20,797 nucleotides of DNA from a virus, in IMG/VR virus record IMGVR_UViG_3300025138_000472, positions 1 through 20,797 of that record. One strand, written 5' to 3'. The translations under genes and the position numbers were made by a program. The notes below the pieces were generated by a model, which was not told the origin of the DNA, did not search any database, and saw nothing but the letters and a program-made list of their open reading frames with translations. Numbering within the stretch: position 1 is the first letter of the stretch; each line of letters begins with the position of its first letter. Shown here piece after piece: positions 389 through 5,917 of this stretch.

Positions 389-3300
389 TTAAAAACTACC
401 CACACCTCTTGAAAACTTTTCATAACTAGGATCAGAATTTCTAACTGTTGGTTTGGGTTGAGATAATTGTGTTGTAGAATTATTCACGGTGTTGATTGTG
501 CTATTCTTCGGCGCGATTACCACGTTGTTTCCACCAGAACCATTGCCAGTAGATTTGTCCAGAGCGTTTTGGTTCATTAGGGTTGCATTTTCATTTTTTG
601 AAAGTCGGTCGCTGTTTCCACTAACATTTTCCAGCTCAGAACTAGACCTTCCGCCAGGCATTGCCGCGGCCGTTTGGCTCCGAGCAGATTGTTCTTGCGT
701 ACTACCCCCACCCATTCCTACAACTAGATCGGGTCTTCTCGCCTTTGCTCTCAATACAAGTCTCTTTTTTGCCGTTCTGACCAGTGAATCTTTAACTCCA
801 GCTGGGGGATTTTGTAACATCTCATATGTAACTTTTCCGTCGGCAGTAGTTGCGCCACCTGCGTTAACCCATCCCAAAGGTGGTTTGATAGTATGTCCAT
901 CAGTTAGTTTCATATTGTTACTAGGCAAATCCGTAGAATTTGTTTCAGCAGAACTTACATTATCCTGTTCTGTTTCGGTGGCCATTGGTACTGCGGCTGC
1001 TGCGGCTGCAACAGGTGCTGCGGCGGATGTTGCAACGTCTGCATTTAATCCACTTTCGCTATTTGCATCGGGACGAATAGGTGCCTGTGCGGGAACGGGT
1101 GATGCCGATGCCGCAGGATTGTTTTGCTTCAGTTCTTCTAATTTTTTCTCATTCTGTGCCATACGTCTTTTCGCCAGTCGTGGTTTGTTACTTTCATACC
1201 ACGCAAAGTCTTTGCTTTCTGCAATTTCTTTATCCGCCGCAATTTTTCCTTCGAGTTCTGCGACTTGTCTTTTATGTTCTTGTGCATTGAAGTCTTGTAC
1301 TTGTTTCTCCGCCCCCAGAACCATATCTTTAGCCATTGCAGTAATTTCATCGAGGCGGGCCTGTGCCTGTACTGGATTATTTGCAAGATCATCCTCTAAC
1401 GGAAAATCATTGCCTGGCGTTTTATAATAATCATTATATGAATCTCTTGCCATTAAACCAATATCAAGCGCAGCGCCTGATACGCTAGGTAAAAATACCC
1501 CAGCACCTTCTGCCGCGGCACCAAGAAAATCTCCATCCCAAAGCCTTCCAGCGGTAAAACCGAGACCCGTAAGTATACCAAGGCCGGGCACCATCTTTGT
1601 TGCCATCTTAGTGAAGTTTTTCCCTAAAATACCTTTCATTTTCTTTTGCGCGATTTTCTTGCCTGTTTCCACAACGCTAGATGCGGCATCTGGAATTTTC
1701 ACGACATTTGATATGGCCGCAGCAGCACCAGCGGCCTTCTTTCCCACTAAGTCCTTTGCGGTTTGAAGTCCACCACCCCCACTTCTGGGTTTCGCACTTA
1801 CTTTTGGCGAACTGGATGCGGATTTGGTAGGCATGTTTGTGTCGGGTTTTACATTTGCGTTGGCGGCAACCGGAACAGATTTGGGCTTTGCGGGATCTAA
1901 CTCGACAACATTATTTTTTCGATTGAATTTTTCTGTTTCTGCATCCGCAATACGGTTTTTGTCTAAATCGGCTTGTCTTGTAGTTTCTTGTGCCTGTAGA
2001 TCTCCGGTGTCAGTACCTTTTGGTGCCTCCATATTTTTCTGTTCTGTAGAAGTTTTTCTATCAACGCCGTCAAATTCGTCTGGGGCCGTGGAAATATTCT
2101 TATTTTTATCAGGAGTGTCAACACTATCATCAGACAAAAATTGGTTGGCCGCTACGGCGGCTCCAGCTCCAGCAACAGCGGTTCCTGCTAGGACTTTAGG
2201 ATTGATTTTTGTTGCCATAGATGAAAAAAAGTTCTTCAATCTTCCAAGTTTTGAATTTTTAGTGTTTCTGCCTGAGCCCGTACCCTGTTGATTATTTGTA
2301 CCCTGTTGATTATTTGTACCCTGTTGATTATTTCCTGAAGTGGTCGTTGTATTAGAAATATCTGGTACAACATCTGTAACATCTGATACAACATTTAACG
2401 CCGTCGATAATCCAAGAAGGGCAGGAATTCCTTTTACTAGACCCTTGAACCCCCCTTTCTTAAATAGTTTAAACGCGCCTTTTAATCCTTGAAGTGCTGC
2501 AATACCCCCACCGATATCACCAATAGTGTCTAGCAAACTTCCTTCGTTTCCACCACCACCAGCAGCACCCCTGCCACCAGCGCCGCCTCGCGCCCCTTCT
2601 TGCATTGCCTTGAGTTGTGCCAATTCGATATCAAGTCTCTTTTTTCTTTCACGGCGTAATTCTCTCGCCTCTTCAATTTCTAACGAATTGGGGTTGTCTG
2701 CATTTTCTCTTTGCCAGACCAATTCGTCATAAATTTTTTCAAGAAACGGTTGAAATTCTAATTGGGTTTCTGTGAGCTGTGTCACCTCTCCATCGGTGCC
2801 AAACTCGCCTTGCGTGGATGCCGTGTCGGTTGTGATACCCTCCGCCGGTGTAGAAATATTCTCATTGTCGGATGTTCCCCGCCGTGCTCTTGGTTGTAGA
2901 TCCGGGCCCCGCCCTCTTCTAACAGTTTGTGCGTCCGTATTTTCAATTTCTTCTGTTGCGGACGGGATGTCTTGAACTGCGGCCGGTGATATATTGTCAT
3001 TTGGTGTAGGAGCGGGTATATTGTCATTTGGTGTAGGAGCGGGCCGTGAATTTTCTTCATCGGATATAGATATTCCATATCTTTCCGCTATCTTTTCTAA
3101 ATTTTTACGGGCCGCTATTTCGGCATCTTCTGCCTCTTTCGATGCCTGGGCCTTCCTAATAATAATATCTTTTTCTTGATCTATTATTTCCTGTTCGGAC
3201 ACCCCCGACACCGCGGCGTCACGTTGAATTTCTTCTTGAGTTTTATTTGACGCCCGAATTGCATCTTCATTTGATATACTTTCTCTAAGAACCTGCATTT

Positions 3301-3829
3301 CTTTTTGTTCGGTCTGTTCTTGAACGGCAAGTCTTTCTACTCTTTGGTCCTCTTCTGCCTTTTGTGCTGCCTTGCGTTCTTTAAACTGTGAAATTCTTTC
3401 ACCGATAAAACTCGCACCAAATGCAAGAATCGGACTTTGGGATAACGCACCCGAAATTAAATTCCCCAATGCACCAGTAGCACCTTTGGCAGCACCTTTT
3501 ACGACATCGCCCACGGTCGATTTAAAGTTTGAATTTTGATTGATACTATTCTGTGCATCTTTCATAGTTTGGTTTAGTGCTGCACTTTCCGCCCTCGACA
3601 ATCCTTCGAGATTTCTGATAGACCTTTGTAGAGAAGCAACACGTTGTTGGGTTTTTTTGTATTCTTCAACAGTCCTCTCTTCTTGACTATCTAAAATAGT
3701 TGTCAATTCGTCGAAGGCGGCTCTCGCACCAGACGACTGCAACGCCGAGCTAGCGTTTTCCAAGGACGCAGCAAGCGCCGCCTCATTTTCTCTTTGCAGT
3801 GTTGCGGTTACTGATGCGAGATCTGCCAT
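389..3829 (-). CDS. Large virion protein, probable tape-measure / hub protein (gp29 position)
   Basis: The product has 1146 residues and starts with ATG directly after the TAA of the EF-hand membrane gene, so the two are probably coupled. Residues 1-260 are rich in charged and Ala/Gln residues and look largely coiled-coil. Hydrophobic Gly/Ala-rich stretches interrupt it near residues 105-145, 438-478, 544-563 and 743-793. Low-complexity linkers separate them: a poly-Gly segment near 413-430, PAPTPNDNI twice near 263-280, and NNQQGT three times near 500-517. Long coiled coil plus membrane-active-looking Gly/Ala segments is the usual make-up of tape-measure proteins, and the gene sits downstream of gp26/gp51-like genes, close to where T4 has gene 29. 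It is about twice the length of T4 gp29 (about 590 residues). No enzymatic motif is visible. The family assignment is inferred from context and composition; another internal structural protein is possible. Confidence 0.6.
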   Translation of the reverse strand: MADLASVTATLQRENEAALAASLENASSALQSSGARAAFDELTTILDSQEERTVEEYKKTQQRVASLQRSIRNLEGLSRAESAALNQTMKDAQNSINQNSNFKSTVGDVVKGAAKGATGALGNLISGALSQSPILAFGASFIGERISQFKERKAAQKAEEDQRVERLAVQEQTEQKEMQVLRESISNEDAIRASNKTQEEIQRDAAVSGVSEQEIIDQEKDIIIRKAQASKEAEDAEIAARKNLEKIAERYGISISDEENSRPAPTPNDNIPAPTPNDNISPAAVQDIPSATEEIENTDAQTVRRGRGPDLQPRARRGTSDNENISTPAEGITTDTASTQGEFGTDGEVTQLTETQLEFQPFLEKIYDELVWQRENADNPNSLEIEEARELRRERKKRLDIELAQLKAMQEGARGGAGGRGAAGGGGNEGSLLDTIGDIGGGIAALQGLKGAFKLFKKGGFKGLVKGIPALLGLSTALNVVSDVTDVVPDISNTTTTSGNNQQGTNNQQGTNNQQGTGSGRNTKNSKLGRLKNFFSSMATKINPKVLAGTAVAGAGAAVAANQFLSDDSVDTPDKNKNISTAPDEFDGVDRKTSTEQKNMEAPKGTDTGDLQAQETTRQADLDKNRIADAETEKFNRKNNVVELDPAKPKSVPVAANANVKPDTNMPTKSASSSPKVSAKPRSGGGGLQTAKDLVGKKAAGAAAAISNVVKIPDAASSVVETGKKIAQKKMKGILGKNFTKMATKMVPGLGILTGLGFTAGRLWDGDFLGAAAEGAGVFLPSVSGAALDIGLMARDSYNDYYKTPGNDFPLEDDLANNPVQAQARLDEITAMAKDMVLGAEKQVQDFNAQEHKRQVAELEGKIAADKEIAESKDFAWYESNKPRLAKRRMAQNEKKLEELKQNNPAASASPVPAQAPIRPDANSESGLNADVATSAAAPVAAAAAAVPMATETEQDNVSSAETNSTDLPSNNMKLTDGHTIKPPLGWVNAGGATTADGKVTYEMLQNPPAGVKDSLVRTAKKRLVLRAKARRPDLVVGMGGGSTQEQSARSQTAAAMPGGRSSSELENVSGNSDRLSKNENATLMNQNALDKSTGNGSGGNNVVIAPKNSTINTVNNSTTQLSQPKPTVRNSDPSYEKFSRGVGSF
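2281..2333 (-). repeat. 18-nt tandem repeat encoding NNQQGT
   Basis: Three copies of an 18-nt unit lie head to tail (2281-2298, 2299-2316, 2317-2333, the last one nt short). They are identical at the base level. In the tape-measure candidate they encode NNQQGT three times, in a flexible linker. Identical DNA copies suggest recent slippage expansion. Confidence 0.9.
2990..3043 (-). repeat. 27-nt tandem duplication encoding PAPTPNDNI
   Basis: Two identical 27-nt copies (2990-3016 and 3017-3043) encode a Pro-rich linker peptide twice in the tape-measure candidate. The exact duplication indicates a recent event within a low-complexity linker. Confidence 0.9.
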
Positions 3830-4174
3830 TTATTTTTTACCCATTACTTCTTTTGCGTAGAACGCAGCAACGATTGCTGCGACTGATACGAAATATGTTG
3901 GTGCCATATCCCCCAGAATACTGGCGGCCTTGTCTAACCCAATAAGTACTGCAATTACGACTGCGAACGGATATAGTAACATTCCAAATAAAGCAAACCA
4001 AGCCATCGCTCTTTGAGCGTCTTGTTTTTTATCTTCATTTTCCATATCACTACGCAGATCTTCTAATTCTATCATTTGTCTTTCCATCGCCATTTCCTCA
4101 TCACTTACTGTTCCATCGCCGTCCTTGTCGAGATGTGCATACTTACTATTTTCTTCAAATTTTTTCGGTGCCAT
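3830..4174 (-). CDS. Two-pass membrane protein with EF-hand calcium-binding loop
   Basis: The product has 114 residues from the ATG at 4174. This start is chosen because an AAAGGA ribosome site lies 7 nt upstream; a longer version from 4264 would overlap the gp51-position frame and begins with unrelated residues. Residues 16-27 (DKDGDGTVSDEE) are a canonical EF-hand loop with acidic or oxygen ligands at positions 1, 3, 5, 9 and 12, so Ca2+ binding is likely. A charged, probably helical region (28-55) follows, then two hydrophobic segments at about 58-80 and 90-107, and a basic C-terminus (MGKK). The gene is squeezed between the gp51-position frame and the tape-measure candidate with no intergenic space. 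Its role is unknown. Possibilities are a virion protein that reaches the host membrane at injection, or a membrane factor in tail assembly or lysis. Confidence 0.8.
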   Translation of the reverse strand: MAPKKFEENSKYAHLDKDGDGTVSDEEMAMERQMIELEDLRSDMENEDKKQDAQRAMAWFALFGMLLYPFAVVIAVLIGLDKAASILGDMAPTYFVSVAAIVAAFYAKEVMGKK

Positions 4175-4181
4175 TTCGTGG

Positions 4182-4187
4182 TCCTTT
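4182..4187 (-). promoter_or_regulatory. Ribosome-binding site that decides the EF-hand gene start
   Basis: AAAGGA on the minus strand, 7 nt before the ATG at 4174 and overlapping the stop codon of the gp51-position frame (4186-4188). It supports the 114-residue start over the upstream in-frame ATG at 4264, which has no comparable site and lies within the preceding coding frame. Confidence 0.75.
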
Positions 4188-4368
4188 ATTGATTTTGTGC
4201 TTTTCTCTGTTCTTCTTCTTTTATATAAGTTATCAATAAATTTAAATAGACTTCGCGTTCCCACGGAATCATACCTTCCAACTCACTCAGACTATATTTA
4301 TGGTGTTGCATTAGTGCAAAATTATTCCTATACAAACTTATTAGGGATTCATGATTTAAGGTTAGGAA
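4186..4368 (-). CDS. gp51-position small protein, probably made as a -1 frameshift extension of the gp26-like protein
   Basis: A short frame between the gp26-like gene and the EF-hand gene. Read from the slippery site it gives about 60 residues: a linker, then LYRNNFALMQHHKYSLSELE and a segment with MIPWEREVYLNLL, ending in a charged tail with Lys-Glu-Glu-Glu. From its only ATG (4311) it would be just 41 residues. That ATG has no Shine-Dalgarno at a normal distance (an AGGA lies about 15 nt away), and a TTG at 4335 is also poorly served. The frame is the -1 frame of the upstream gene and opens exactly at its T8 run. The position matches T4 gene 51 (hub assembly), which follows gene 26, but T4 gp51 is much longer, so homology is not shown. 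The peptide looks like a real helical domain. Whether it is expressed alone or as a fusion is inference. Confidence 0.6.
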   Translation of the reverse strand, partial: FLTLNHESLISLYRNNFALMQHHKYSLSELEGMIPWEREVYLNLLITYIKEEEQRKAQNQ

Positions 4369-5087
4369 AAAAAATCAGCCACACCGCTCACTTTCATTTC
4401 TTTTTTAAAGTCGCATTTTCTACATCTTATATTTACCGCACAACTTGTTTCGGGCATAGTTTCAAAAAAATCATTGATAGACGCAAATTGATTTTGTGTC
4501 AGATTTTCGATAAAATCCACAAGTTCTTGTGTTGTGTAGTCAGTGGCGTTTAATACCTCGTCATCTTCCGTTATGTACTCAATACACCCTGCAATGACTT
4601 CCACAATGTCATCATAATTTTCTGACTGCAAAATGCTGTTAAGTATATGAAAATCTGGATATTTCATTACTAAATTAATTCTGTCGGTCAATTCTATAGT
4701 AGTGCTGTGGTTTTCATCGGTTTCTTGAACCGCAACATTTTCCAGATCCATCGTAAAAGGTATGTCACAATCCCCTGCTCCACCATCTTTGTCTGGACAC
4801 TCTGTTCTCTTATATGTTAGGTTTATTATATTTCCTACAGATTTAGATCTCAAATTAACGAACAAATATTCGATATCAAATGTCGCCAACTTGTCAATAT
4901 CAATATCTTCAATTAGGCAGTTTCGAATTATTTGTTTTATTGCGTGTATTTTTTCTTCTATATCTTCTCCTTGCTGAGCCATTAATAGTATTTTTTCTTC
5001 TTTTACTAAAAATGGCCGGAACCTTGTTTTTATACCTGTAGATGGTAATGTAATTTCATACGTTGGTGTATCAATCCGTGGTAACAT
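4362..5087 (-). CDS. 26: gp26-like baseplate hub assembly protein (T4_baseplate family)
   Basis: The product has 241 residues; T4 gp26 has 208. The N-terminus (MLPRIDTPTYEITLPSTGIK, then RFRPFLVKEEKILLMA) and the segment FDIEYLFVNLRSKSVG near 70-85 are the family's conserved pattern. Cys97, Cys107, Cys222 and Cys225 could form a zinc site, with the last pair in a C-x2-C knuckle near the C-terminus. In T4, gp26 acts in assembly of the central baseplate hub and is not a major virion part. A GAGGA ribosome site lies 7 nt before the start. The gene is followed immediately by an overlapping frame in the -1 register, and its last codons form a slippery T-run, so a longer C-terminally extended product of about 300 residues may also be made. 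The family assignment is confident; the extension is inferred. Confidence 0.85.
   Translation of the reverse strand: MLPRIDTPTYEITLPSTGIKTRFRPFLVKEEKILLMAQQGEDIEEKIHAIKQIIRNCLIEDIDIDKLATFDIEYLFVNLRSKSVGNIINLTYKRTECPDKDGGAGDCDIPFTMDLENVAVQETDENHSTTIELTDRINLVMKYPDFHILNSILQSENYDDIVEVIAGCIEYITEDDEVLNATDYTTQELVDFIENLTQNQFASINDFFETMPETSCAVNIRCRKCDFKKEMKVSGVADFFS
4368..4374 (-). promoter_or_regulatory. Candidate -1 ribosomal frameshift site (T TTT TTT)
   Basis: In the gp26-like reading frame the last codons are GAT TTT TTT TCC TAA. The heptamer T TTT TTT fits the X XXY YYZ slippery pattern exactly in the zero frame, within a run of eight T on the minus strand (4367-4374). One backward slip avoids the stop at 4362-4364 and enters the gp51-position frame, which stays open to 4186. 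No strong downstream stem was identified by eye. Confidence 0.55.
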
Positions 5088-5107: not shown

Positions 5108-5917
5108 TTAACGGCCGAAACGACTTCCAAACGATCGGACTCTTTCTTTTGCTTTGCTCTCAATATTTAGTGCAGAACTTACTCTTTGATTGACCGTCTC
5201 TTCTAAACTTCTTTTGCCATTTTCCAGAGTACTTTTTGCATTTTCTAATTTTTTAACTGTCCTGTCAGATGCCTTCCTTGCACCCTGATATCCAGCAGTC
5301 AATGAGTTTGGAGTATCTGGTGAAGATACTGTCGATTTTACTAGATCTGCGACATCTGACCCACTACGTGCCGCATTTTCGTGCGTCATGCTGGAAATAT
5401 ATTTTAGATAAGATATTGTGATTTGGCAGGTGGCAGGTTCTTCGTTTGAATATGCAAACGCAACATCGCCCAATGCGAGTGGAAACGCATCTACAAAATT
5501 GTATGCCTGTTTTATATCCCCTGCCGCATTATATACAGATAGTGTCATATCCCCTAAATATTTTTCTGCATATTCAACTTTGTGCGACTCATAGTCAACA
5601 ATTAAATTCATCCATCTTTCAAAATATTCTCTTTCCGATAGCCCTTCGCTTAATAGCAGACTGAATGTTACTTGGTCATATGTCATTGCATATGGTGCCT
5701 GTCTGACCGGTCCATACACTTTTGTTTCTACGGTCGAAACGGATTTTCCGGGCAATGTAAAGTCTGCAACTCTATACTGCATGTCTTGATTTCCACCGTC
5801 AGCACCAGTGTTTATCGCCTCGGGGGCGTTGATAGATAATATATACCTGTTGGCGTGCAACAGTCCTTTTTTGCTTATTTCAGATACAAAGGTTGATATT
5901 GATGGATTGAAAGACAT
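5108..5917 (-). CDS. Tail-tube-fold protein (gp19/gp54 type)
   Basis: The product has 269 residues. Residues about 20-180 follow the contractile-tail tube pattern: an N-terminal NRYILSI strand, a central VADFTLPGKSVSTVE strand pair, the segment MTYDQVTFSLLLSEGLSERE followed by FERWMNLIVD, and a closing strand pair with CQITISYLKY. Residues about 195-269 form an added basic, probably helical tail not found in T4 gp19 (163 residues). That makes it closer in length to gp54 (about 320), the tube initiator on the baseplate. Which one it is cannot be settled without the rest of the genome, where a separate gp19 next to the sheath gene would point to gp54. Its start sits just after the stop of the upstream gene, with AGGAG about 10 nt before the ATG, so it is co-translated with the gp4 group. 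Confidence 0.75.
   Translation of the reverse strand: MSFNPSISTFVSEISKKGLLHANRYILSINAPEAINTGADGGNQDMQYRVADFTLPGKSVSTVETKVYGPVRQAPYAMTYDQVTFSLLLSEGLSEREYFERWMNLIVDYESHKVEYAEKYLGDMTLSVYNAAGDIKQAYNFVDAFPLALGDVAFAYSNEEPATCQITISYLKYISSMTHENAARSGSDVADLVKSTVSSPDTPNSLTAGYQGARKASDRTVKKLENAKSTLENGKRSLEETVNQRVSSALNIESKAKERVRSFGSRFGR

Follow-up and report, generated by a model that had tools for sequence, protein, structure and literature searches.

Organisation of the gp26-like/gp51 locus

The window, that is, the whole stretch of 20,797 bases analysed here, carries on its minus strand a gp19-like tail tube gene, followed by the gp26-like/gp51 locus, one gene for a 114-aa protein and one for a presumed tape measure protein of 1146 aa (Table 1). 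The gp26-like protein scores 192.6 bits against PF12322, for a curated Pfam cut-off of 24.5, and is about 41% identical to the gp26 of its nearest named relatives. It is the single gp26 match within the 20,797-base record, which is a fragment. The 1146-aa protein is probably the tape measure protein, judging by its position only; Pfam/PHROG-type profile searches returned no family match for it, and its comparison with the tape measure protein of pelagiphage HTVC008M gave no match either.

The neighbouring 114-aa protein displays one EF-hand-like loop, DKDGDGTVSDEE, together with hydrophobic segments, and HTVC008M has in the same place a gene of comparable length, whose product also bears such an NGDG loop. 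On the plus strand, a small ORF (179-385), which adjoins another small ORF (15-182), encodes a hydrophobic segment followed by a cysteine (LFLAVVIFGCNAG) and is possibly a lipoprotein.

Table 1. Coordinates of the chaperone locus and of its neighbours in the window
Feature	Position	Strand	Evidence or remark
Tail tube (gp19-like) gene, upstream	5108..5917	-	PF06841 E 4.4e-07, PHROG_45 E 4.5e-34
gp26-like gene, zero-frame product, 241 aa (short chaperone)	4362..5087	-	PF12322 E 9.7e-57, PHROG_150 E 1.9e-61
SD-like element before the slip	4384..4388	-	AGCGG here (weak); many relatives have GAGGG
Slippery heptamer T TTT TTT	4368..4374	-	Zero-frame TTT 4373-4371 and TTT 4370-4368
Zero-frame stop TAA	4362..4364	-	One codon (TCC) past the heptamer
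-1 frame extension, gp51 domain, 60 residues plus stop	4186..4368	-	PHROG_634, purifying selection, alignment with the T4 gp51 C-terminus
114-aa protein with EF-hand-like loop, between gp51 and the presumed tape measure gene	3830..4174	-	EF-hand below cut-off, E 0.006
1146-aa protein, presumed tape measure	389..3829	-	Position only

On the minus strand, the gp26-like ORF (241 codons, ending at 4362) closes with ...GTG GCT GAT TTT TTT TCC TAA. Within a run of eight T (4374-4367), the heptamer T TTT TTT fits the X XXY YYZ motif in the zero frame, and the letters 4374-4362 agree with the original prediction, which had placed it in this frame 3 nt before the stop. A slip to -1 had been expected to enter a frame open for about 60 residues; indeed, it gives 60 residues plus a stop, the frame being open through 4189 with its TAA at 4188-4186. 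Directly upstream of the slip, the -1 frame is closed by a TGA and therefore cannot begin earlier. Its first start codons after the slip are TTG 4335 and ATG 4311, and the count of 41 residues given for a product starting at this ATG is right.

The -1 peptide, 62 residues long when the FF of the slip is counted with the 60 that follow, matches PHROG_634 (E 3.3e-26, profile positions 56-116 of 121), in line with the earlier assignment of the downstream frame to gp51, and the homology begins at the slip. It also matches the C-terminal end of PHROG_150, which indicates that this profile includes proteins with both parts. Together with the gp26-like protein it makes a predicted gp26-gp51 fusion of 300 aa. 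In the AlphaFold model, which is of moderate confidence, helix 1 of the -1 peptide occupies residues 11-25 and spans the first ATG, at residue 22, so that initiation there would leave half a helix. A fold search with the 62-aa peptide found nothing, and only weak helical matches were obtained when PDB sequences were searched with a gp51 profile. In S-SM2, the predicted slip-spanning counterpart reads ...GLAGFFRIALIHMDLENYYR.

Conservation of the T-run and of the -1 register

Two surveys of relatives were carried out. In the gp51-anchored survey, IMG/VR was searched with an alignment of the gp51 frame and the best 80 of at least 597 relatives were kept; with the window and 11 annotated phages, this makes 92 loci, which fall into 72 clusters at 70% amino acid identity. 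The gp26-anchored survey was run so that loci would not be chosen by the -1 peptide under test: genome contigs were searched with a gp26 alignment, with the N-terminal motif RP[FY]LV[KR]EEK as seed. It yielded 41 loci on contigs from many bacterial and some archaeal assemblies, which we infer to be mostly phage DNA binned with these assemblies. One of these loci is N-masked at the site and was left out, so that 40/41 were readable.

TTTTTT is found in the same phase in 92/92 of the gp51-anchored loci, which include the best 80 of at least 597 relatives. In this same sample, the six T are followed by C in 51 loci, T in 33, A in 7 and G in 1; the zero-frame stop lies 2-11 codons past the slip, and the gp51 domain always stands in the -1 register (92/92). 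Likewise, all 40 readable gp26-anchored loci have TTTTTT in phase, followed by C, T or A, and the gp51 domain in the -1 frame. Across both surveys, the site takes the form NNT TTT TT[C/T/A/G], the register is -1 and a zero-frame stop lies close by. The original prediction had proposed looking among relatives for a good start of the downstream frame, for a missing T-run or for another register; the T-run and the -1 register turned out to be universal in both surveys, which did not refute the prediction.

This conservation concerns the nucleotides. In some loci, the second zero-frame codon is a Leu codon, giving U UUU UUA, which is the shift site of HIV, or U UUU UUG. As these variants are still slippery, it is the nucleotide run that is conserved and not the FF dipeptide. 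All 72 clusters use TTT as the first Phe codon (p about 10^-12.8 under the genes' own codon usage) and all 72 have a T-ending codon before this TTT (p about 10^-14.9, given the amino acid), the clusters being treated as independent in both calculations.

The same counts bear on two other explanations of the split. First, a homopolymer sequencing error could have cut one gene in two, and the site is indeed a homopolymer on a single metagenome-derived contig. However, the same split and register are present in the finished isolate genomes of S-SM2, P-SSM2 and HTVC008M, and in all 132 loci read, most of which have a short run. The relatives thus refute such an artefact, to which we attach a negligible probability.

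Second, RNA polymerase could add U on the T-run, a transcriptional switch by which some mRNAs would encode the fusion in frame. Eight T in a row, the length of the run in the window, are within reach of known polymerase slippage. A run of six is short for it, and the commonest form of the site, NNT TTT TTC (51/92 loci, best 80 of at least 597 included), has only six T; moreover, the heptamer form and its zero-frame phase are always kept in both surveys. We regard polymerase slippage as the source of the fusion as extremely unlikely.

Two contigs of the gp26-anchored survey may be described here. The N-masked locus lies on CP070695.1, a Candidatus Heimdallarchaeota chromosome, where a T4-like gp26 fragment (42% identity over residues 2-165) adjoins the masked sequence in this archaeal MAG; it is probably phage DNA that was scaffolded in. 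A chaperone locus of T4 type and of the cyanophage kind is found on NZ_RMVE01000006.1, a 188 kb contig of a Nonlabens xiamenensis isolate assembly, which may equal a whole phage genome.

Start codons, selection and the upstream SD-like element

The start codons of the -1 frame bear on a further explanation, in which gp51 is a separate small gene, translated from TTG 4335 or ATG 4311 or through restart by a terminating ribosome, the T-run being incidental. Database annotation in many relatives treats gp51 in this way, and some relatives possess an ATG 3-8 codons past the slip, for example ValKK3 and Cr30, where stop and start overlap. Nevertheless, among the 92 loci (best 80 of at least 597 included), 63 have no ATG and 47 have no ATG, GTG or TTG before codon 16, and in 91 the -1 frame contains no start codon ahead of the slip. 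This stretch is under purifying selection: in pairwise comparisons, pN/pS for -1 codons 3-19 is 0.34 (1.16 and 1.63 for the two remaining frames), and it is 0.38 in the 46 loci without ATG, GTG or TTG before codon 16. Purifying selection where no nearby start exists indicates that translation of this -1 stretch matters.

A separate gp51 would also leave unexplained the universal TTTTTT in one phase and the constant -1 register, and the SD-like element described below appears too distant from most of the ATGs in question. The startless relatives, the selection from the slip onwards and the cut through helix 1 by a first-ATG start lead us to reject an independent start as the main route to gp51, and a separate gene with an incidental T-run is very unlikely. 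In those relatives with an ATG 3-8 codons past the slip, a separate gp51 could be made in addition, through initiation that is either independent or coupled. The comparative evidence for a programmed -1 frameshift is strong: it very probably joins the gp26-like gene to the gp51 frame, and the phage would be a marine T4-like one with its tail assembly chaperones encoded here.

Upstream of the heptamer, a purine followed by GG is present at positions -12 to -10 in 65/72 and 34/40 loci of the two samples (the first drawn from the best 80 of at least 597 relatives), often as GAGGG. Pairing with the anti-SD in the last six codons exceeds that obtained by synonymous resampling, with z of -7.8 and -6.8 in the two samples; for control windows along the same genes, z lies between -3.3 and 3.2 in the first sample and between -2.2 and 2.1 in the second. 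The spacing between the SD-like element and the slip in relatives is 9 nt, and spacings of 9-14 nt have been reported for stimulation of -1 shifts. The element may thus stimulate the slip. Since SD-like sequences located ahead of a stop codon can also act in translational coupling, as a separately translated gp51 would have it, we put this role forward as a hypothesis; the element is a directly testable candidate stimulator.

As for RNA structure, no consensus downstream structure was found among relatives with RNAalifold, and none stands out in the window itself. Downstream stretches of at least 45 bases in relatives are slightly more structured than synonymous shuffles (z of -0.75 to -1.23 on average), so that lineage-specific hairpins are possible. 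We consider it an even call whether the marine T4-like chaperone slip is actively stimulated, with the SD-like element 9 nt upstream and lineage-specific downstream hairpins setting the ratio of short to long form. If it is, this would be a stimulated version of the G/GT shift, dnaX-like in its SD-like element, which lineages would tune differently and which would be degenerate in the window. The -1 frameshifts of E. coli dnaX and of IS elements have a slippery heptamer after an SD-like stimulator, and the relatives studied here have a heptamer after an SD-like element; they differ in that the proteins are unrelated and in that no consensus downstream stem-loop was found at the chaperone locus. 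In certain tailed phages, G-T shifting seems to proceed without stimulators (PMC5009743), in contrast to the SD-like element of the relatives analysed here.

Predicted short and long chaperone forms and the comparison with T4

With a programmed -1 frameshift at this site, most ribosomes would terminate at TAA 4362, with the short chaperone (gp26) as product, and a minority would slip by -1 on T TTT TTT and read the 60 additional codons of the 300-aa gp26-gp51 fusion. In lambda, the tape measure protein is bound by the short and long chaperones G and GT, and the extension recruits tail tube subunits (PMC5009743). By analogy, the tape measure protein of this phage would be a partner of both forms, tail tube subunits would be brought in by the gp51 part, and both forms would leave before tail completion. 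We infer that ribosomes actually slip, and likewise how often they do so and what the two proteins bind. Lambda gpG/gpGT is likewise a pair of chaperones of unequal length, the longer one arising when ribosomes slip by -1 shortly before the first gene ends, as is predicted for the window; no sequence relationship between the two loci was found.

The predicted model of gp26 has a pLDDT of 93.8. Among the PDB matches listed by Foldseek, those of highest probability (0.93 and 0.80) are to 2ob9, a tail assembly chaperone from HK97; their E-values of about 0.4 are not significant (E 0.47 and a TM-score of 0.42 on the target for the match with probability 0.93). The next match, equally not significant, is 3fgx, an uncharacterised Bacillus protein, with a probability of 0.72, and a PDB sequence search with the gp26 profile returned nothing credible. 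Taken with the gene position and with T4 gp51 as an in-frame fusion, the weak structural match to the HK97 chaperone is consistent with the G/GT-like system suggested in the original prediction.

In T4, genes 26 and 51 lie on opposite strands. Both gp26 and gp51 belong to PF12322 (E 8.8e-64 and 3.9e-52, respectively), and gp51 matches PHROG_634 as well as PHROG_150, the latter over nearly its full length; its alignment with the 300-aa fusion predicted for the window runs through the junction. T4 and the window thus have homologous N-domains and a homologous gp51 C-terminal domain; they differ in that the two forms of T4 are separate genes, on opposite strands and without a heptamer. A Krischvirus and IME13 share the T4 arrangement, the long form being one ORF, gp51. 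In the three genomes checked, gene 26 ends without the heptamer (TTC TTT in T4), so that phages with a dedicated gene for the long form lack the slip site. Judging from these alignments, T4 gene 51 encodes a paralogue of gp26 that continues in frame into the gp51 C-terminal domain and is in effect a permanent version of the predicted frameshift product. A PDB sequence search for a solved relative of T4 gp51 found none. T4 gp51 is needed for assembly and absent from the particle, and both gp26 and gp51 are listed as hub assembly chaperones (PMC3004832). The frameshifted state on one side and the two unlinked genes of T4 on the other offer a natural experiment for studying the control of chaperone ratios in phages.

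Several groups of T4-like phages reportedly retain the frameshift, while T4 itself relies on two separate genes, 26 and 51. Within this division of T4-like TAC-N/TAC-NC genes, the window fits the frameshifting group, at about 41% gp26 identity to the nearest named phages. By its title, as cited in PMC10885494, a study by Vladimirov, Gautam and Davidson (2022, Virology 566:9-15) deals with the tail assembly chaperone genes of T4-like phages, and a later paper (PMC12846349) refers to it for -1 frameshift signals of poly-T type in the TAC-N genes of such phages. By these citations, the frameshift had already been proposed for T4-like phages and the present one is thus not a new system. The window adds a good further example of a mechanism already known; the broad survey of relatives and the SD-like element upstream of the slip come from the present analysis.

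The predicted fusion also bears on a puzzle raised in 2010 by Sullivan et al., who found that cyanophage gp51 has about 20% of the length of T4 gp51 and is without its first ~200 residues (PMC3037559). As gp26 would supply these ~200 missing residues through the frameshift, the short cyanophage gp51 would be accounted for. Many database entries for gp51 are probably C-terminal pieces of a fusion, often given the wrong start codon, and not separate genes. Probable annotation errors were also noted in two phages: in S-WAM1, gp51 is unannotated and the start of gp26 is placed too late, and in Mosig the annotated start of gp51 falls inside the conserved domain.
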